From contig VYCT01000213.1 of assembly GCA_009843785.1 (NCBI GenBank), positions 1 through 36,917 of the forward strand: 36,917 nucleotides of DNA. The letters run 5' to 3'. Below, piece after piece: positions 3,492-34,130 of this stretch. Position 1 is the stretch's first letter. Each line of letters opens with the position of its first letter. A program made the translations under genes and the position numbers. Source of the DNA: Candidatus Poribacteria bacterium (GTDB taxonomy: Bacteria > Poribacteria > WGA-4E > WGA-3G). The notes beneath the pieces were generated by a model. That model ran no database searches and had not been told where the DNA came from. It saw only the letters and a list, made by a program, of their open reading frames with translations.

Positions 3492-3899
3492 TTATTGGAA
3501 CTCTGCCAGAAAGTCCGCTGGCTTTACAATAAGGATACCCTGATAATTTCCAAGTGGCAACAGATGCTTCTGATCGCCAGTAACAATATGGGTAGCTCCT
3601 CCGACAACAGCACATTCTATTATCATGTCGTCGTCTGGATCGGTTGTGATGCCTTTGAGGCGATTGGGAATTTCTACCGTTTGGAGGAAACCAAGAAGCC
3701 GGGTCTTCACTACCGAGGTCCGGGTCGAAGGAATACCCAACTTGATCATTAGCTTATCTTCAAATTCATCAAGAATCTCATCACAAATTAACCCTTTAAC
3801 CTTATTTTCCTGTGCCAGTTCAATGGATCGATAAGGCACACCACCCCAAATCATACCCGATATCAGAACATTTGTATCATAAACGACTACCGGTTGCAT
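3492..3899 (-). CDS. PIN-domain toxin
   Basis: The 135-residue protein starts with VVVYDTNVLISGMIWGG, the first acidic motif of PIN-domain ribonucleases. A mid-region acidic residue lies in the LICDEILDEFEDKL helix, and later a cluster TDPDDDMIIECAV is followed by THIVTGDQKHLL, together giving the conserved acidic residues that hold Mg/Mn. The G-P-F---I---DFL type ending matches the PIN_3 (COG1569) group of putative toxins. The start overlaps the 3' end of the upstream gene by 13 bases, the usual arrangement for translationally coupled antitoxin-toxin pairs. It probably cleaves RNA when unneutralised. Confidence 0.8.
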   Translation of the reverse strand: MQPVVVYDTNVLISGMIWGGVPYRSIELAQENKVKGLICDEILDEFEDKLMIKLGIPSTRTSVVKTRLLGFLQTVEIPNRLKGITTDPDDDMIIECAVVGGATHIVTGDQKHLLPLGNYQGILIVKPADFLAEFQ

Positions 3900-4144
3900 T
3901 CACGATCCTCGTGGACGATGTCGTCAATAAAATATAAACGCTCGTCGTCTGTCATCGTGTCCCAGTCTAATCCGCGTTCGGCACATAATTGTCTAACTTT
4001 TGATTCAGCATATTTCATCCGTTCCTCGCGTTCTGCTGGTGTTTCCTTTGTCAGTGCACGAACAACCAAGAATTTTTCTTCCGGCGGCATCTGCTGAACC
4101 AGATCAATGATTTGTTCAGTTGTTAATTCAAGCGTCAAATTCAT
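3887..4144 (-). CDS. Putative antitoxin of the PIN pair
   Basis: The 85-residue acidic, helical protein is preceded by a perfect AGGAGGTGA ribosome binding site on the minus strand (about 4150-4160). The N-terminus (MNLTLELTTEQIIDLVQQMPPEEKFLVVRAL) looks like the short strand-helix start common in small antitoxins that sit before PIN toxins in cyanobacteria and other uncultured lineages. The charged C-terminal half probably wraps the toxin. There is no clear helix-turn-helix. The function is inferred from the 13-base overlap with the toxin gene and the size. Confidence 0.6.
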   Translation of the reverse strand: MNLTLELTTEQIIDLVQQMPPEEKFLVVRALTKETPAEREERMKYAESKVRQLCAERGLDWDTMTDDERLYFIDDIVHEDRECNR

Positions 4145-4238
4145 TTTGATTCACCTCCTAAATCTTGAAGTTCAATTATAACAAAAATTTGCTTGAATAT
4201 CAACTGAAATTCAAGGAACAGCAGGAACATATTGTAAA

Positions 4239-7200
4239 TTATGTGAGCAGTGGCTTCAACCACCGCTTTGCCGTTTCCATGTCCATGCCGGTGCGTTCCG
4301 CATAATCTGCAACCTGATCCTCCCCGATCCTACCGATGCTGAAATATCGCGCTTCTGGATGCGAATAATACCACCCACTCACAGATGCCGCCGGAGCCAT
4401 CGCCAGACTTTCAGTGAGAGAGATCCCCGTATTTTCTGTTACATTCAACAAATCGAACAACACCCGTTTTTGGTTGTGGTCGGGACAGGCAGGGTAACCG
4501 GGTGCCGGACGGATCCCTCGGTATTTTTCGGCAATCAAGGCATGGTTATCCAACGTCTCATCAACGGCATACCCCCAAAGCTTTGTGCGGACGTGCTGAT
4601 GCATCTTCTCCGCGAACGCCTCTGCGAGTCGGTCTGCCAACGCCTTCGCCATGATGCTGTTATAATCGTCCTGCTGCTGCTCAAATTCGGCACAGAATTC
4701 GGAGACACCGATACCGGTTGTCACTGCAAACGCCCCGATATAGTCTGGCATTGTTGTCGCCTTCGGCGCGATGAAATCGCCAAGGCTGAGATTCGGTCTC
4801 GTGAACGGCTGTTCCGTCTGTTGGCGTAGGTGGTGTAGTGTAGCGATGGGTTCCGTCCGCGCTGCGTCGGCATAGATTTCAGTGTCTTCGCCGACACCGT
4901 TGGCTGGGAAAAGCCCAACGACAGCGCGTGCCTGAAATCTTCTCTCTTCGACAATGATCCGCAAAAGTGCTTCCGCATCTTTAAGGAGTTTACGTGCTTC
5001 TTCACCGACCTCCGGATTTTCCAATATATTTGGATACTTACCACGGAGTCCCCAAGTCGTGAAAAACGGACTCCAGTCGATGTAGTCAACGAGTTTCTCC
5101 AAAGCGTAGTCATCGAAGACCGTAACACCTATTGTTGAAGGTTTAGCGGGGCGGTAATTCTGCCAGTCCGGCATGAATTTCCGTTCTTGGGCAACAGTGA
5201 AGGAAAGCAAGTTCGCCTGTTTCCGATTTTTCGCACGGCGTTCTCGGATGTCTGTATATTCTTCACGAATGTGTTCGGTGAACGCCCCCTGTCTTTCACT
5301 GCTCATCAAATCGCTAACAACGCCAACGCTTCGGGACGCATCTTTGACATGGATCGTTGAACCGTTGTAAGTAGGTTCAATTTGGACCGCAGTATGTATC
5401 TTAGAGGTGGTCGCGCCACCGATGAGGAGCGGGATACGGAAGCCTTCTCGTTCCATCTCTTCAGCGACATGTACCATCTCATCTAACGATGGTGTGATGA
5501 GTCCACTTAATCCGATAATATCGGCATTCTCTTGCCGTGCCGTCTCCAGAATCTCTTCCGCCGGCACCATTACCCCAAGATCGATAACTTCGTAATTGTT
5601 GCAGCCGAGCACAACACCGACGATATTTTTTCCGATGTCGTGTACATCGCCTTTCACCGTCGCCATCACAATTTTGCCCCTGGATCGGATAGCGCCTTCC
5701 GCTTGTTCTTTTTCAATAAAGGGTATGAGATGTGCGACTGCCTTTTTCATCACACGCGCACTTTTGACCACTTGCGGCAGAAACATTTTACCGTCCCCAA
5801 AAAGTTCACCGACGCGGTTCATACCGTCCATCAGTGGTCCTTCGATCACCTGTATCGGCCGTTCGTATGTCAGACGTGCTTCTTCCGTGTCTGCTTCAAT
5901 GTATTCGATAATCCCTTCAACGAGTGCATGACTGAGCCGTTTTTCAACCGGGAGTTTCCGCCATTTTCGACTCACACGCTTCTTTTTCCCTTTCCCTTGC
6001 AGCGTGCCAGCGAGTGTGACGAGTCTATCCGTAGCATCTTCTCGCCGGTCGAATAGGACATCCTCCACTGCTTCGAGAAGCGTTTTCGGTAGGTCGTCAT
6101 AGACGGCGAGTTGCCCGGCATTGACAATTCCCATGTCCATACCGGCATTAATGGCGTGGTAGAGGAACGCGGCGTGCATCGCCTCTCGTACCGTATCGTT
6201 GCCACGGAAAGCGAAAGAGATATTGCTAACGCCGCCACTCACCAAAGCGTCCGGACAGGTGGTTTTAATCGCCTCACACGCCTCAATAAATGCCTTCGCG
6301 TATGCGTTGTGTGCCTCAATGCCGGTTGCGACGGCGAAGATGTTCGGATCGAAAATGATGTCCTCCGGTGGAAACCCGGCTTCTTCTGTCAAAATTCGGT
6401 ACGCCCTACGGCAGATCTCCACCTTCCGTTCATAGGTATCCGCTTGCCCCGCTTCGTCGAACGCCATCACAATAACGGCGGCACCGTATCGACGGATCAG
6501 TCGCGCTTTCGCTAAGAAATCTGACTCCCCTTCTTTCAAGCTAATCGAGTTGACGACGCCTTTCCCCTGAACGCACGCCAACCCCGCTTCTATCACTTCC
6601 CACCGGCTCGAATCCAGCATGATAGGCACACGACTAATGTCCGGTTCAGCAGCAATCAGGTTCAAGAACTTGACGATTGCGGTTTTGGCATCTAACATAC
6701 CCGCGTCCATGTTAATGTCGATGAGTTGCGCGCCGTTTTCCACTTGGTCGCGCGCAACCTCTAACGCGGTTTCGTAGTCCTCATTTTTAATGAGCGTCGC
6801 GAATCGGCGTGAACCTGTTACGTTTGTCCGTTCACCAACGTTAACAAAGAGAGAATCCGGCGTGATGTTAAACGCCTCTAAACCGCTCAGACGGCAGGCG
6901 CGTTCTTGTGGCATCGGTTGACGCGGCGAGTATTCAGCGGCGACTTTGGCAATCGTTTCGATATGTTCAGGTTGGCTGCCGCAACAGCCACCGACGATAT
7001 TGACAAAGCCGTTTTGCGCGAATTCATGCATCCAATCTCCCATTTCCGTGGGTGTCTGTGTATACTGACCGAGTTCGTTGGGGAGCCCAGCATTCGGATA
7101 GCAGATAACCGGTATGTCCGCCATCTTTGCCATCTCTGCGAGGTAGGGACGGATCTGTTGCGCGCCAAAACCGCAGTTCAACCCGACAGCGAGCAGATTG

Positions 7201-25809: not shown

Positions 25810-28326
25810 ATGCAAATAAGAAAACTCTATCCCTTTTTTATTATTTTCTCGATAACCCTTGTGTTCGTAATACACGGCGCAGCACAGAACACCGCCGATG
25901 ATGCGCCAGCGACAGATTATTTCGAGCAGGTTACACTCTTTTCCGGTGGCAGAATCACGCGCTTTACACAGATGCCGATTCGCGTGCATATCTCACCTAC
26001 GCTCAAAGCACTCCCCTATCTAAACGAGATACGCTACGCTATGAACACTTGGGAATCCGCCACCGATGGCAAAATCCGGTTTCAAGAAACCGAAACCCCG
26101 GAACAGGCAGACATCCGTGTCACCTCAACCTATACCGGTAATCTTAGTTTTCTTGATACGCGGCTCGGGACCGCGAATTTAACTCGACTTGAGCAAGGTA
26201 CATACACCGTTTCCAGCACCAAGCCCCAAGCACAAAGGCGGGACACTGATCAGTCTTCAAACACAGTAGGGGGCGGGTCTCCCGCCCCGTCCATTGATTT
26301 CACAGTAGAAGTGATCCTTGTGTTAGAGAGTGACGGCACCACCGGCGAACTCTCACAACAAAAGATGCGTACTGTGTGCCTCCATGAATTTGGGCACGCC
26401 ATCGGTTTATGGGGACACAGTCCAAACACCGATGATGTCTGCCATGCCATGGCGACTGCGCAACACCCAACACCTCGCGATATCAACACATTGCTGAAGA
26501 TTTACAACACACCGCTCCACACCTCGCAGCACGACATCGCCATTGACCTCTTGAAAAAGGAGATCCAGAGGAATCCGAGGCTCGCGCGTCCGCACTACCT
26601 CCTCGGGGCAGTCTACTTCGACAAAGGCGATACGGCATTGGCGATCCCTAATTTTCAGAACTGCCTCGGGGTTGACCCGAACTACGAGCCAGCATGGACG
26701 AAACTGATTCAAGCGTATCAAAAAACAGGACAGTCGAGCCAAGCCGCTCGTCTCGTTGAACAGCGCGTGAAAAGCCAGCAGGGACACCGATCCCTCCGTG
26801 ACAGTGCTGAATCCTATAACCGTCTCGGCACGCTCCATTACCAACAAGGCGATACGGACAAAGCGATACAGGCATTTGAGAGCGCACTGAAACGCTCACC
26901 ACACCACAAAACGGCGAAACAAAACCTCAACCAACTCTACCGCCAAAAAGCTTTCAATGCCTTGAAACGCCGCGCTTTTGACGAAGCGACCGCCTATTTT
27001 GAAAAAGCCATCCGTCTCGATCCGATGAACGCCACCACCTATCGGGTTATGGGAGACGGATACGCACTCGCCTCCGAATTCGCCCAAGCGATTACACACT
27101 ACCAAAAGGCACTCGAGCTCACACCCGACGACGCAGAAGCGCAGAAGAACCTCGTAATCTCTTGGACGAACCACGGGGTGACGCTCCGGAACAAGGGCGA
27201 ATGGGACGCAGCAATTCGCGCCTACCGCAACGCTCTGGTGCTACAACCGACCTACCAACTCGCCAAGACAAACCTTATTGACGCACTCTCACAAAAGGCG
27301 GACACCCAACGGCAATCTGGACGTTCCGACGAGGCGATCGCGACCTACCTCGAATTGCAAAAACTGCAACCGGACGATCCGACTATCGAAAGCCTCCTCG
27401 GCGAGTTATACCTAAAAATCCGGGACTACCCTGCGGCGATTTCGGCGTTCCACAAGGTTTACACCGCGCAGTCCACCAAACAGACCACCAACGAACAGGC
27501 ACGGCGTAACCTCAGTGCTGCATATCAACAGTACGCGCAGACTTTGAGAAACCAGAGGGATTACACCGCTTCAGCGACGCAGCTCCAGAAAGCGGTAGAC
27601 CTCTTTCCGAAAGACATCAACCTCCGTCTGAGCCTGTCGCAGGCGTATCAACACCTCGGCAAGTACGAACAAGCACAAAGCGAATTAGAACAGATTTTAG
27701 CGCAAGACCCAGACAACAAGAACGCAAAGACAGAACTCGTGAACATCCAAATCCGACGCGGAAATGCCCTGATGAACCGCCAGAGATACGCCGAAGCAGC
27801 AGCCGTCTTTGAATCGATTCCGGCATCCGAAAAGACTTTGGATATGCACAACACAATCGGCTATCTCTATCTGATGCAGGGTGAACACTTCAAAGCGTTA
27901 GCAACATTTGAAACCGTCCTCACGAGACAACCGAAAAATGCGGTCGCCTATCAAAATCTGCTCTCGCTTGAATCGCAACTCGATGTAGCACTCAGTAAAG
28001 CGAGAGAGACTACCACACCGGTTCCCGGCACTGGTGAAACAGCTTCGGTCCCAGATACAGTGCCAGACACCGCCGACCCAATTGCTGAGAAATTATCTCG
28101 CGTGCAGTGCGTCCTCGCGCGTTGTCTAATCAACCGCAAGCAATCGAAGGAAGCGATGGAAAAATACCGACAAGCGTTAGATGCGAAACCGTATACACCG
28201 GAATTGCGAACCGTCCTGATAGACACCGGCAAGCAGCTCGCCAACCGGTTCCAGAAACAAAACGACACCGAACGCTATGACACAATCACCCGTTGGGTAA
28301 AGGAGCATACCGATGAATCTTTATAA
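25810..28326 (+). CDS. Exported matrixin-like metalloprotease with TPR repeats
   Basis: An AGGAGG site precedes the ATG. Residues 1-27 form a signal peptide ending near GAA. The N-terminal domain (about 35-225) resembles a secreted zinc protease: MPIRVHI at the start, RYAMNTWESATDGKIRF, then HEFGHAIGLWGH (His192, Glu193, His196 and His203). Relative to HExxHxxGxxH there is one extra residue before the third His. About 600 residues of TPR units follow (for example GDTALAIPNFQNCLGVDPNY, GDTDKAIQAFESALKRSPHH), with a short Thr/Pro linker near 740. The protease probably acts outside the cytoplasm, with TPRs as protein-binding scaffold. The 3' end overlaps the next gene by 14 bases. Confidence 0.85.
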   Translation: MQIRKLYPFFIIFSITLVFVIHGAAQNTADDAPATDYFEQVTLFSGGRITRFTQMPIRVHISPTLKALPYLNEIRYAMNTWESATDGKIRFQETETPEQADIRVTSTYTGNLSFLDTRLGTANLTRLEQGTYTVSSTKPQAQRRDTDQSSNTVGGGSPAPSIDFTVEVILVLESDGTTGELSQQKMRTVCLHEFGHAIGLWGHSPNTDDVCHAMATAQHPTPRDINTLLKIYNTPLHTSQHDIAIDLLKKEIQRNPRLARPHYLLGAVYFDKGDTALAIPNFQNCLGVDPNYEPAWTKLIQAYQKTGQSSQAARLVEQRVKSQQGHRSLRDSAESYNRLGTLHYQQGDTDKAIQAFESALKRSPHHKTAKQNLNQLYRQKAFNALKRRAFDEATAYFEKAIRLDPMNATTYRVMGDGYALASEFAQAITHYQKALELTPDDAEAQKNLVISWTNHGVTLRNKGEWDAAIRAYRNALVLQPTYQLAKTNLIDALSQKADTQRQSGRSDEAIATYLELQKLQPDDPTIESLLGELYLKIRDYPAAISAFHKVYTAQSTKQTTNEQARRNLSAAYQQYAQTLRNQRDYTASATQLQKAVDLFPKDINLRLSLSQAYQHLGKYEQAQSELEQILAQDPDNKNAKTELVNIQIRRGNALMNRQRYAEAAAVFESIPASEKTLDMHNTIGYLYLMQGEHFKALATFETVLTRQPKNAVAYQNLLSLESQLDVALSKARETTTPVPGTGETASVPDTVPDTADPIAEKLSRVQCVLARCLINRKQSKEAMEKYRQALDAKPYTPELRTVLIDTGKQLANRFQKQNDTERYDTITRWVKEHTDESL

Positions 28327-29500
28327 AAAATCAACCCAGATAGGTCTGGTCATCCTGTTAGTTCTCCAGATCGCCATCTTCAGCGGTTGCGAGCAATACG
28401 AAGAATTCACCAATGATCCGCCTGAAATAACCACCCTCACGGTCCCAGCAGAAGTTGAATACGGCGAAACCGTTCAATTCCGAATCAGGGCTTTTGATGC
28501 GAATGACGACTCTCTAACCTATGTATGGGATGTCTCCGAAGGGACGTTAACCGGCGACACGGGGCCCGAAGTGCAGTGGACCGCCCCTGAGGCAGACGAA
28601 GAGATGGTGCCATCGAGAGTCGTAACCGTTAATGTCTATGTCCGAGACGGTAGCGAGAAAGATGCATCCAAAACGGCAACGATCCTCGTCTATGCCAAAC
28701 CCTACAGGGTCGCCGAGACGCTCAGCGGCACCTATACGCTCGCTGCCAAAAGTGTTCACGGCGATCCTGTCCAAGTAACAGGCACCCTACGCCTCACACC
28801 CACAACCTTCACACAAGAATTCCAAGAGGTCTTAGCAGACGAAGCACAATCTCAGAAACAGTTCGTCACCGGCTCCTACAAACTCGTCAGACCGTTTGAC
28901 CAAAACAGCGGAACGATCCACTGGTTCACGCATGGAGACCCGAAGCCTTTGGTCGTTACATATACCTGGGATGGACGATTCTTGGCTCTGATTTTTCGTG
29001 CCGATGCCACGCAGTACATCTACAACCGTGAAGGCCCGGACCCCGAAGTCGTCGCAACCGATGATGTGGACCCTGAACCCCTTGAAGAAGATGTTGAGCC
29101 GGAGCCGATTGACCCTGAACCCCTTGAAGAAGATGTTGAACCGGAGCCGATTAACCCGGATCCGGTTAATACCGATGGCAAACCCGTTACAATAACCGAT
29201 GCAACGTTCAATGCCAAGGTGTTGGAGGCTGAATTGCCCGTTGTGCTTGAATTTGAAGCCGATTGGTGTCCGTTTTGCAGACAAATGAAACCCATCGTTG
29301 AGTTGATCGCATTAGAACACCGTGATACTTTCATCATTGGGAAGTTGGATATCGATGAAAACCGTCAGACGATGGAGGCATATAAGGTAAAAGGGATTCC
29401 AACTTATATCATATTCCAAAACGGTGCAGAGGTCACAAGATTCGCAGGCGCGATGCCGAAACAGGTTTTTGAAAATAAAATCCTTGATGCGCTGAAATAG
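28313..29500 (+). CDS. Lipoprotein with Ig-like domain and C-terminal thioredoxin domain
   Basis: The ATG lies inside the end of the protease gene, so the two are translationally coupled. The lipobox IFSGC places the lipid on Cys26. Residues about 35-135 form a PKD/Ig-like domain (PPEITTLTVPAEVEYGETV and LTYVWDVSEG). A second beta-rich domain (about 140-235) has LSGTYTLA and SGTIHWF motifs. An acidic spacer repeats DPEPLEEDVEPEPI twice. The C-terminal thioredoxin domain (about 285-395) has the redox motif WCPFC (Cys319, Cys322) and the GIPTYIIF cis-Pro loop. It is probably a membrane-anchored periplasmic disulfide reductase or isomerase. Its thioredoxin part closely resembles the gene at 31059. 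Confidence 0.88.
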   Translation: MNLYKKSTQIGLVILLVLQIAIFSGCEQYEEFTNDPPEITTLTVPAEVEYGETVQFRIRAFDANDDSLTYVWDVSEGTLTGDTGPEVQWTAPEADEEMVPSRVVTVNVYVRDGSEKDASKTATILVYAKPYRVAETLSGTYTLAAKSVHGDPVQVTGTLRLTPTTFTQEFQEVLADEAQSQKQFVTGSYKLVRPFDQNSGTIHWFTHGDPKPLVVTYTWDGRFLALIFRADATQYIYNREGPDPEVVATDDVDPEPLEEDVEPEPIDPEPLEEDVEPEPINPDPVNTDGKPVTITDATFNAKVLEAELPVVLEFEADWCPFCRQMKPIVELIALEHRDTFIIGKLDIDENRQTMEAYKVKGIPTYIIFQNGAEVTRFAGAMPKQVFENKILDALK

Positions 29501-29563: not shown

Positions 29564-30028
29564 ATGAAACGTAAACAATTTTTGATACTGCTACTCATTA
29601 GTTTTCTGCCCCTTGTGCTGCTGCACAACGCTTTTGCACAAGACTACACGTGGTTCAATTTGCCAGAAGATGCAAAACGCCGCATCGGCAAAGGGAGAAT
29701 AACTGACATGGCTTACTCACCTGACGGGAATCAACTTGCAGTGTCCACTAAGATCGGGATTTGGATATACGACGCGCGTACCGGCGAAGAACGCAATGCG
29801 TTGCTCGATGATACACAAGGCAGCATCATGGGTATCGCGTATTTGCCGGACGGTCGCACATTGGTTAGCGGGATTGGCAGGGCGATCCGCTTGTGGGATA
29901 CCACCACCGGTAATCCTAAAGCCCCTTTCATAGAGCAGGTCCCTCGCGGTATCCATCGTATTGCGCTCAGCCCCGATGGCAAAACTATCGCCGCTCATGT
30001 AAAAAGTATGTGCGATTGCTCTCAGTGA
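29564..30028 (+). pseudogene. Truncated exported WD40-repeat protein
   Basis: A signal peptide (KQFLILLLISFLPLVLLHNAFA) is followed by WFNLPEDAKRRIGKGRITDMAYSPDGNQLAV and then about three WD40-like blades (each with SPDG/LPDG and a D-like W-strand). The frame ends after 154 residues in an unrelated tail (VKSMCDCSQ), in the middle of a blade; propellers normally need seven. The tail is encoded by the left end of a palindromic element (29993-30083). No continuation of the propeller is found downstream. It is probably a broken gene, though expression of the stub is possible. Confidence 0.75.
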
Positions 30029-30186: not shown

Positions 30187-30909
30187 ATGAATCCTTTTAA
30201 CAAATCAACTCAAGCAGGTTTGGTTATTCTATTAATTCTCCAAGCCGTCATCCTTATCGGATGCACACAATTTGAAGAACTCACCAACGATCCGCCCGAA
30301 ATAACCACTTTCACCATCCCGAATGAAGTTGAATATGGTGAAACCGTCACATTTAAAGCCAGAGTCTTTGACCCGGAAGACGATCCGTTGAGGTATGCGT
30401 GGGAGGTAACCGATGGCGTTTTGGCAGGTGAAGCGGGCCCCCAAGTCGAGTGGACTGCCCCCGAACTGCCACCGGATGGCATCGTCCCGCCGAAAGTCGT
30501 AACCGTTTATCTCTACGTCCGCGATGACGGTGAGGAAGATGTCCACAAAATGGCAACCATCACCGTCTTCTCCAAACCCTATAAAATCGCCCAATTCTTC
30601 AGCGGCACCTATACGCTGATCTCCAAGCAGGTCAACGGGGACCCCATTGCAGAAACCAGTATCCTACGCCTCACACCGACGACATTTACACGAGAAATCC
30701 AATCGAATCTGGAAGCAGAGATCCAAGAACCGACGCAGTTCATCACCGGCTCCCATAGGTTTGTTGAGCCCTTTGATGAAAGCAGCGGGACGATCCACTG
30801 GTTCCCTACCGGAAGCACGACACCCGATGTCAGCACGTATACGTGGGACGGCAGACTTTTCGTCATCTTCTACCCCGAAACCGCCACCAGTTATATTTAT
30901 GAAAAGTGA
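30187..30909 (+). CDS. Lipoprotein with Ig-like domain, paralogue without thioredoxin
   Basis: The 240-residue protein aligns along its whole length with the first 240 residues of the lipoprotein at 28313. They share the lipobox region (LIGC, Cys26), TNDPPEITT, VEYGETV, the W-V-DG strand, SGTYTLI, RLTPTTFT and SGTIHWF. It stops just after TSYIYEK, exactly where the paralogue enters its acidic spacer. It therefore lacks the thioredoxin module. It is probably an envelope protein of unknown role, a product of gene duplication and domain loss (or the paralogue gained the domain). The start codon is preceded by CGGAG. Confidence 0.75.
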   Translation: MNPFNKSTQAGLVILLILQAVILIGCTQFEELTNDPPEITTFTIPNEVEYGETVTFKARVFDPEDDPLRYAWEVTDGVLAGEAGPQVEWTAPELPPDGIVPPKVVTVYLYVRDDGEEDVHKMATITVFSKPYKIAQFFSGTYTLISKQVNGDPIAETSILRLTPTTFTREIQSNLEAEIQEPTQFITGSHRFVEPFDESSGTIHWFPTGSTTPDVSTYTWDGRLFVIFYPETATSYIYEK

Positions 30910-31058: not shown

Positions 31059-31538
31059 ATGAAAACACTGTTTAGAACGTGCGTTTTACTGATCATCGGT
31101 TTAGTCGCTGTCTACACCGCCGGCTGCGGTGAAGATATTGAACAGGAGATAGACCCCGTAGCGGTTGATACAGAATCCGCTCGCGAAGAGTCTTCTGAAC
31201 CGGTTGCGGCTGATGGGAAACCCATCACAGTCACCGATGCAACCTTTGAAGCCGTTGTGTTGGAGGCTGAATTACCGGTTGTGCTTGAACTCGGCGCGGA
31301 GTGGTGAGGCTTCTGCCGGTCAATGCGACCAACCGTTGATGCAGTTGCATCAGAATATCGTGAAAAGTTTATCATCGCGAAATTAGACATTGATAAAAAC
31401 CGTAAGACCGCGGGAGAATACGGAGGACAGGGGATTCCGGCTTACATTGTCTTCCGTGATGGCGAAGTCGTCGGAAAATTTATCGGAGCACTGCCCAAAG
31501 CCGCTTTTACCCAGCAAATTCTTGATATCTTGAAATAG
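31059..31538 (+). CDS. Candidate selenoprotein: thioredoxin-like lipoprotein with UGA at the redox Cys
   Basis: A GAAGGA site precedes the ATG. The signal ends in lipobox YTAGC (Cys23). An acidic linker leads to a thioredoxin domain that aligns with that of the lipoprotein at 28313. At codon 83 (31305-31307) there is an in-frame TGA, exactly where the paralogue has the first Cys of WCPFC. The frame continues after it without further stops for 76 residues (GFCRSMRPTVD..., IIAKLDID, GIPAYIVF, a normal C-terminal helix). Read as selenocysteine, the motif becomes W-Sec-G-F-C, with Cys86 as partner. A stem-loop lies about 29 bases after the TGA. The alternative is a nonsense mutation, but its position at the catalytic residue and the intact downstream frame argue for recoding. 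Full length would be 159 residues. Confidence 0.75.
31337..31352 (+). promoter_or_regulatory. Candidate bacterial SECIS stem-loop
   Basis: TGATGC (31337-31342) and GCATCA (31347-31352) form a 6-bp stem with loop AGTT, which has a G in its second position. The loop begins 35 bases after the TGA. That is near the upper limit I recall for bacterial SECIS elements. A second option, CTGC-CGGT pairing with ACCG and GCAG (31313-31344), starts closer to the TGA. Which one SelB would bind cannot be decided by eye. Confidence 0.4.
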
Positions 31539-32672: not shown

Positions 32673-34130
32673 ATGGCACAACAAAACATAACACTCCAGA
32701 AAATCGACGAATACCGCTGGCGTATCCCGAAAAGTTACATGAAAGGCATGCGCGTCGATGGCATCGTCTATGCCAACGAAAAACTCCTTGAACACGCAAA
32801 GAGCGATGAGGCGTTGCAACAGGTCGCAAACGTCGCACACCTCCCCGGTATCGTCAAACACTCGCTCGCAATGCCCGATTTACACTGGGGATACGGTTTC
32901 GTTATCGGCGGTGTCGCTGCGACGGATCCGAAGGCAGACGGCGTGGTCTCTCCCGGCGGCATCGGATACGACATCAATTGCGGGGTCCGCCTCATCCGAA
33001 CAAACCTTGATGTCTCGCAGCTTGATGGAAAACGGAAAGCACTCATCGGCAAGTTGTTCGAGAACGTCCCGTGCGGTGTCGGCTCCAGCGGCGCGATTCG
33101 GCTCACCGTCCAAGAAGAACGGCGAATGTTGGAAAAAGGCGCGCTGTGGGCAATTGAGCGGGAATATGGACACCCAAACGACCTTACCTTCACCGAGGCG
33201 ACCGGTTTCCTCCAACACGCCAACGCCGATGCTGCGAGCCAACGCGCATTAGAACGCGGTAAAAACCAACTCGGCACCCTCGGCTCCGGCAACCATTTCC
33301 TTGAAGTCCAAGCCGTTGATCGTATCTTTTACCGAGAAGCCGCCGATGCGATGGGCTTAAGCGAAGGTAATATCTGTGTCATGATTCATACCGGTTCACG
33401 CGGCTTCGGCTACCAGATCTGCGATGAACACGTCAAGAGTTGGGTCAAAGTCGCCGAAAGATACGGTATCAGACTCCCCGACCGGCAGCTCGCCTCCGCA
33501 CCCATCAACTCGCCGGAGGGACAGGATTACATCACCGCCATGGCGTGTAGTGCCAACTATGCGTGGAACAATCGGCAGTGTATTATGCACCTCGTCCGCC
33601 AGACCTTCATGCAGTTTTTTGACACGACAGAAGCAGAACTCGGTTTAGAGCTGGTCTACGATGTCGCGCATAACATCGGAAAATTCGAGAAACACACCGT
33701 TGATGGCAAAGAACGTGAGTTGTTTATTCACCGCAAAGGGGCGACGCGCGCATTCCCCGCAGGACATCCAGAGATTCCCGAAAAATACCAGAAAGTCGGG
33801 CAACCCGTGCTGATCCCCGGTGATATGGGAACCGCCTCTTATGTGCTTGTCGGCAATCCGGGCGCGATGGCGGAGACATGGGGCACCACCTGCCACGGTG
33901 CCGGGAGAGTCCTCTCGCGCCGGAAAGCGATTGCCTTAACGAAGGGACGTTCTATCCAAAAGGATTTGGAAGCACAAGGCATCTTCGTCCGTGCGGAAGG
34001 CAGACGCACTCTCCAAGAGGAGGTCCCCGAGGCTTATAAGGATGTTGATGAGGTCGTCCGTGTCGTTGACAAAGCCGGACTTTCACGGCGTGTTGCACGC
34101 CTCCGCCCCATCGGGGTCGTAAAAGGTTGA
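32673..34130 (+). CDS. rtcB: RNA-splicing ligase RtcB
   Basis: RtcB joins RNA ends carrying 3'-phosphate or 2',3'-cyclic phosphate to 5'-hydroxyl ends, using GTP and Mn. The 485-residue protein has AMPDLHWGYGFVIGGVAA, GGIGYDINCGVRLI (metal-binding Cys103), GTLGSGNHFLEV, VMIHTGSRGFGYQIC, the GDMGTASYVLVG segment and TCHGAGR, whose His408 is the expected guanylylation site. The ending LRPIGVVKG is typical. No Shine-Dalgarno is clear. The upstream neighbours are close enough for co-transcription. A sigma-54-type promoter lies about 100 bases downstream; in enterobacteria rtcBA is sigma-54-controlled through RtcR, though there the promoter is upstream. Confidence 0.97.
   Translation: MAQQNITLQKIDEYRWRIPKSYMKGMRVDGIVYANEKLLEHAKSDEALQQVANVAHLPGIVKHSLAMPDLHWGYGFVIGGVAATDPKADGVVSPGGIGYDINCGVRLIRTNLDVSQLDGKRKALIGKLFENVPCGVGSSGAIRLTVQEERRMLEKGALWAIEREYGHPNDLTFTEATGFLQHANADAASQRALERGKNQLGTLGSGNHFLEVQAVDRIFYREAADAMGLSEGNICVMIHTGSRGFGYQICDEHVKSWVKVAERYGIRLPDRQLASAPINSPEGQDYITAMACSANYAWNNRQCIMHLVRQTFMQFFDTTEAELGLELVYDVAHNIGKFEKHTVDGKERELFIHRKGATRAFPAGHPEIPEKYQKVGQPVLIPGDMGTASYVLVGNPGAMAETWGTTCHGAGRVLSRRKAIALTKGRSIQKDLEAQGIFVRAEGRRTLQEEVPEAYKDVDEVVRVVDKAGLSRRVARLRPIGVVKG

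Follow-up and report, generated by a model that had tools for sequence, protein, structure and literature searches.

In this study we have analysed a stretch of 36,917 nucleotides from a Candidatus Poribacteria bacterium (contig VYCT01000213.1 of assembly GCA_009843785.1; hereafter the window), in which a short gene for a thioredoxin-like protein carries an in-frame TGA (Table 1). Translated through this codon, the gene forms a single frame whose product reads ...LELGAEWUGFCRSMRPTVD... around residue 83, and the TGA, the only one in the frame, occupies the first redox position of the thioredoxin domain. The Pfam Thioredoxin match (PF00085) runs across the TGA from residue 56 to residue 154, with 81.5 bits against a gathering score of 23.5, and PF13098 is a secondary match (2.5e-07 versus 4.9e-23). 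The protein is laid out as a hydrophobic N-terminus with a lipobox-like motif, an acidic linker, and the thioredoxin domain, in which both hallmarks of a thioredoxin are found, namely the redox pair spaced by two residues (UGFC) and the cis-Pro loop (GIPAY); C/U83, C86, and P127 are invariant in our thioredoxin alignment (A4). In an AlphaFold2 model the thioredoxin fold is confident from residue 48 onward, the N-terminal 47 residues are disordered, and residue 83 lies immediately before the active-site helix (residues 84–99, pLDDT >90). The single 159-residue frame and the Pfam match across the TGA bear out the original prediction of a thioredoxin fold in frame on both sides of codon 83.

Table 1. 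Features of the window discussed in the text.
Feature	Position	Strand	Details
Sec-thioredoxin gene (probable lipoprotein), 159 aa, Sec at codon 83	31059–31538	+	one TGA in open frame; PF00085 match spanning it (4.9e-23); 15 further genomes with orthologues
In-frame TGA, probably read as selenocysteine (WUGFC)	31305–31307	+	kept in 16/16 distinct copies
Candidate bacterial SECIS hairpin, UUGAUGC[AGUU]GCAUCAG	31336–31353	+	7 pairs; 4-nt loop at 31343–31346; G second in loop; 35 nt after UGA
Putative signal peptide, closed by a lipobox-like VYTAG-C (Cys23)	31059–31130	+	direct sequence reading; N-termini of relatives compared
Cys paralogue (WCPFC): thioredoxin domain at the C-terminus of a PKD-like lipoprotein	28313–29500	+	PF00085 2.1e-23; sister to Sec family in tree; syntenic in relatives
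PKD-like lipoprotein resembling the N-terminal part of 28313–29500, without thioredoxin domain	30187–30909	+	conserved neighbour

The paralogue encoded upstream has Cys at the aligned position (codon TGT), as had been proposed. In the thioredoxin-domain tree this Cys lipoprotein is the sister of the Sec family of the window, and the two genes are near neighbours both here and in most of the relatives checked, where the order Cys-thioredoxin, PKD-like lipoprotein, Sec-thioredoxin, and rtcB recurs with insertions. Between the two PKD-like lipoprotein genes of the window lies an open reading frame for a WD40-type β-propeller (29564–30028), which stops at 154 aa and appears truncated; counterparts (38–51% matches) occupy the equivalent site in several relatives. 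A promoter scan upstream of the Sec-thioredoxin gene gave nothing above chance. By eye, a TTGCAT-17-TATAAT arrangement, below the threshold of the scan, can be seen about 50 nt upstream of the gene start.

Under the standard table 11, translation ends at the TGA, and the listing of open reading frames gives only 31059–31307 for this gene. This is what would be expected if the TGA were a true stop, leaving either a pseudogene or a fragment of 82 residues followed by the remnant of a frame. Such a fragment, however, would have neither of the redox residues and little of the fold, no further stop is found in the thioredoxin domain of the 16 distinct copies, and the codons beyond the TGA are constrained to the same degree as those before it, with a dN/dS in the window family of 0.223 over 34 codons upstream and 0.244 over 70 codons downstream. 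In two other UGA-thioredoxin families the values before and after the UGA are 0.116/0.133 and 0.259/0.384, again purifying on both sides. The frame after the UGA is intact, in line with the earlier claim, and is maintained by selection; the selection pattern refutes a pseudogene or an 82-residue product, and we regard a true stop as extremely improbable.

The codon itself is conserved in a very restricted manner. The window gene is present in 16 genomes of the genus and contains exactly one TGA in all of them, always at the same codon. Over the 105 related thioredoxin-like domains that were fetched, the redox position is TGA in 87 and Cys in 18, with no other codon, which is the TGA/Cys alternation that had been anticipated among relatives; the second redox Cys is retained in 97/97 domains for which the codon was tabulated. 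A chance TGA is ruled out by these counts, and a sequencing error by the recurrence of the TGA in metagenome-assembled genomes of several record series and in one single-contig chromosome. Two genomes of genus g2 (L054, L176), which form a separate second clade, have Cys where the orthologues of genus g1 have TGA, and the domain tree as a whole needs three Sec/Cys changes. Among the genomes compared, the window organism's own family (genera g1 and g4) was the only one in which UGA thioredoxins were found.

All four genes for selenocysteine incorporation that the original prediction had called for are found in the same genome. selA lies on contig C335 (4.8e-157), and contig C234 carries selB (3667–5607) directly upstream of selC, a tRNA-Sec at 5622–5711 (or ending at 5715) with the anticodon TCA and a score of 78.1 bits against a gathering score of 47. 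The SelB protein has the EF-Tu-like domains together with both SelB winged-helix domains. selD (6.8e-108) also has an in-frame TGA, at the familiar Sec site of SelD proteins (CAGUASKL); the selD locus (L031, around 3174, minus strand) is itself a UGA selenoprotein gene. In a set of 84 genomes, mostly of the phylum, selA is found in 70 and tRNA-Sec in 70 and, because of this, selenocysteine decoding is considered old in the Poribacteria lineage. Six draft relatives with UGA thioredoxins (G030, G033, G034, G004, G025, and G013) are without a match to selA and/or selC, and selB is present in four of the six. For G030, G034, and G004 it is a full selA match that is missing, and G030 and G034 also have no tRNA-Sec match. 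Assembly gaps are the likely explanation in drafts such as G030, which is 96% complete and has selB.

The same data bear on whether the UGA could be read as another amino acid, either by a general change of the code (UGA as Trp or Cys) or by plain readthrough. The frame would be open under any such reading, but TGA is an ordinary stop elsewhere in the window, as in rtcB (32673–34130), which it terminates, and the 20 other open reading frames of the window have no internal TGA, against 80 TGG and 79 Cys codons; a general reassignment is rejected on these grounds. Furthermore, the UGA is confined to the redox Cys position and the Sec site of SelD, the genome has SelB and a tRNA-Sec with a UCA anticodon, and a conserved hairpin, as described below, is expected for SelB decoding only. 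We consider insertion of an amino acid other than selenocysteine very improbable.

A SECIS-like hairpin downstream of the UGA had also been predicted, and one is found, but it is centred at 31336–31353 and does not start right after the UGA. The rules given for bacterial SECIS elements (PMC13188914, Fig 2A) are a loop of 3–9 nt, a stem of 4–16 bp, a G at loop position 1 or 2, a spacing of 16–37 nt, and a minimum free energy of at most −7.5. The hairpin lies within these ranges (4-nt AGUU loop, 35 nt spacing, and 7 bp, or 6 when folded alone), with an energy of −7.5 by itself, just at the threshold, and −17.7 for the 60-nt region. Considered in the window gene alone, it reaches p 0.14 under synonymous codon resampling, and a stem as long occurs at about 4% of random in-frame points of the window. 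The hairpin of a single gene is by itself weak evidence, and the weight comes from its register, fixed in all 16 copies of the family, and from the synonymous sites: the lowest synonymous change of the family alignment, 0.09 where the mean is 0.44 (p 0.018 by permutation), falls at codons +11 to +15, coinciding with the hairpin. The stem pairs in 98.2% of cells, versus 29–55% when slid by one to three columns, and RNAalifold recovers it unprompted; one compensatory double change (U-A to G-C), the only one seen in the family, is present in one relative. The shuffle controls for the hairpin treat the sequences as unrelated, their relatedness being ignored. The Cys paralogue has no comparable hairpin, and of ten Cys homologues one (L059) has such a hairpin, by chance. 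At Rfam gathering thresholds there was no match to a SECIS family in the window or in five stretches of its own genome, the tRNA-Sec being the only match.

Beyond what the original prediction covered, two further UGA thioredoxins, both fused to dockerins, are encoded in tandem on contig C18 of the same genome (L028, 4536–6047 and 6131–6739), and both families occur through most of the genus. The long protein (503 aa) has a WUHFC thioredoxin together with a bacterial Ig-like domain (Big_5) and a type I dockerin, while the short one (202 aa) consists of a type I dockerin and a thioredoxin with the motif SUIYC. In the dockerin families (e.g., L143, L148, L155, and L163) the Trp before Sec is replaced by Thr, Gly, Phe, Arg, Ser, or Asn, and motifs such as TUPFC, GUPFC, FUIYC, and RUIYC have a residue at this place that is unusual for thioredoxins. 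In genome G028 (L047), two WUG-type Sec thioredoxins are adjacent, one of them preceded by an Ig-like domain and not by a lipoprotein signal, an arrangement suggesting domain shuffling of Sec domains. As regards the hairpins, synonymous change in the long C18 family is entirely absent from codons +6 to +10 (p 0.0004). The stem of this family is GGCG-C-C[AGUU]G-U-CGCC, with an AGUU loop identical to that of the window family and five cells in which both sides have changed; a scan for perfect stems missed it on account of a C-U mismatch, and it was detected by pair counts and RNAalifold. In the case of the short dockerin family, two subgroups have different registers, CUGU[GGUC]ACAG and GCGACC[GGU]GGUCGC, with no single shared stem, a weak RNAalifold consensus, and a synonymous dip that is not significant (p 0.063); one common SECIS is not claimed for this family. 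The UGA of selD is followed, 17 nt downstream, by the hairpin GGCUCC[GGG]GGAGCU.

Selenocysteine is by far the likeliest residue at position 83, because the established biology of SelA/B/C/D and of SECIS elements inside the gene (PMC13188914) comes together here with a strictly conserved UGA, a frame that stays open and under selection beyond it, the genes of the machinery, and a conserved hairpin. Our preferred reading, to which we assign a probability of about 0.94, is that the gene encodes an exported selenoprotein of thioredoxin fold, probably a lipoprotein, whose UGA is decoded via SelB and the hairpin and which is redox-active outside the cytoplasm. SelB with Sec-tRNA(Sec) would bind the hairpin in the mRNA, the UGA would be decoded as selenocysteine, and the ribosome would complete the protein, which would then be exported and probably attached to lipid at Cys23. 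In terms of the original prediction, the selenoprotein reading is well supported by the machinery, the TGA/Cys-only position, the downstream selection, and the hairpin. As regards the lipid anchor, a putative signal peptide and a lipobox-like motif (YTAGC) can be read from the sequence, but position −3 is Thr, off the strict consensus. This position is Ile, Thr, or Ala in relatives, and the G-C of the motif and the hydrophobic stretch are kept among the N-termini of lipoprotein-type relatives that were compared. Judging from these N-terminal signals, the protein is likely to be exported with a lipid anchor, and it is because of this N-terminus that we place its presumed action in the envelope.

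There the thioredoxin domain would work as a selenol/thiol-disulfide oxidoreductase, with Sec83 as the nucleophile attacking a disulfide or an oxidant of the envelope and Cys86 as the resolving residue, by analogy with thioredoxins. A selenoprotein with a different role, for instance a peroxide- or metal-binding envelope protein, would fit the variation of the x-x pair (GF, GA, GV; PF, HF, and IY in the sister families) and of the residue before Sec, and no partner reductase has been identified; the window family nevertheless keeps the cis-Pro position (GIPAY) and the W-x-x-x-C context and still matches PF00085, and such a role seems to us unlikely.

Sec thioredoxin (Trx, PF00085, UxxC) is listed among the experimentally verified selenoprotein families (PMC13188914, PMC9312934). 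Like this family, the window protein has Sec at the first redox position of a PF00085 fold, in a UxxC motif, but it has in addition a lipoprotein-like signal and a linker, and dockerin and bacterial Ig-like domains are fused to its paralogues. The name TrxA is not appropriate for the window protein, since it scores under the cut-off of the NCBIfam equivalog TIGR01068 (82.8 versus 96.8 bits). Predicted UxxC selenoproteins include a thiol:disulfide interchange protein (PF13098) and DsbG-like and DsbA-like proteins (PMC13188914, table). These are likewise thiol-disulfide oxidoreductases of the UxxC type, although from different Pfam families. From their names, these three probably reside outside the cytoplasm. 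A HUIPC-motif thioredoxin-like selenoprotein (NF047660) and SaoT (NF040730), also listed in PMC13188914, are similarly named thioredoxin-like and have UxxC, but neither model matches the present proteins at 1e-3. In-frame UGA with a conserved frame, Cys homologues, SelA, SelB, SelD, and tRNA-Sec, and a bSECIS hairpin are all present, and we assign the window protein to the known UxxC PF00085 type of selenoprotein because that family is already verified and UxxC oxidoreductases of exported type are already listed. The unusual features are the lipoprotein-like signal at the N-terminus, the fusions to dockerins, and the expansion across the genus. In the open-licence papers searched we found no description of such an N-terminus, of dockerin fusions of selenoproteins, or of an expansion on this scale, nor of selenoproteins linked with Poribacteria thioredoxins.

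All together, the several exported Sec-thioredoxins might, as a tentative proposal, form a dedicated extracytoplasmic selenium redox system in Poribacteria, that is, an expanded selenoproteome of the envelope and surface linked to life in sponges, with one kind lipid-anchored and two bearing dockerins that could plug into cohesin-bearing scaffolds. As gene callers would cut these genes short at the UGA, the redox domain would be missed genus-wide. With three Sec families, close Cys sisters, and matched hairpins, a single genus offers a clean natural series for studying the timing and the causes of the replacement of Cys by Sec, as well as the minimal make-up of a bacterial SECIS. That a sponge-associated lineage would carry Sec on exported proteins of modular build further raises the question of which oxidant or disulfide these proteins encounter outside the cell.
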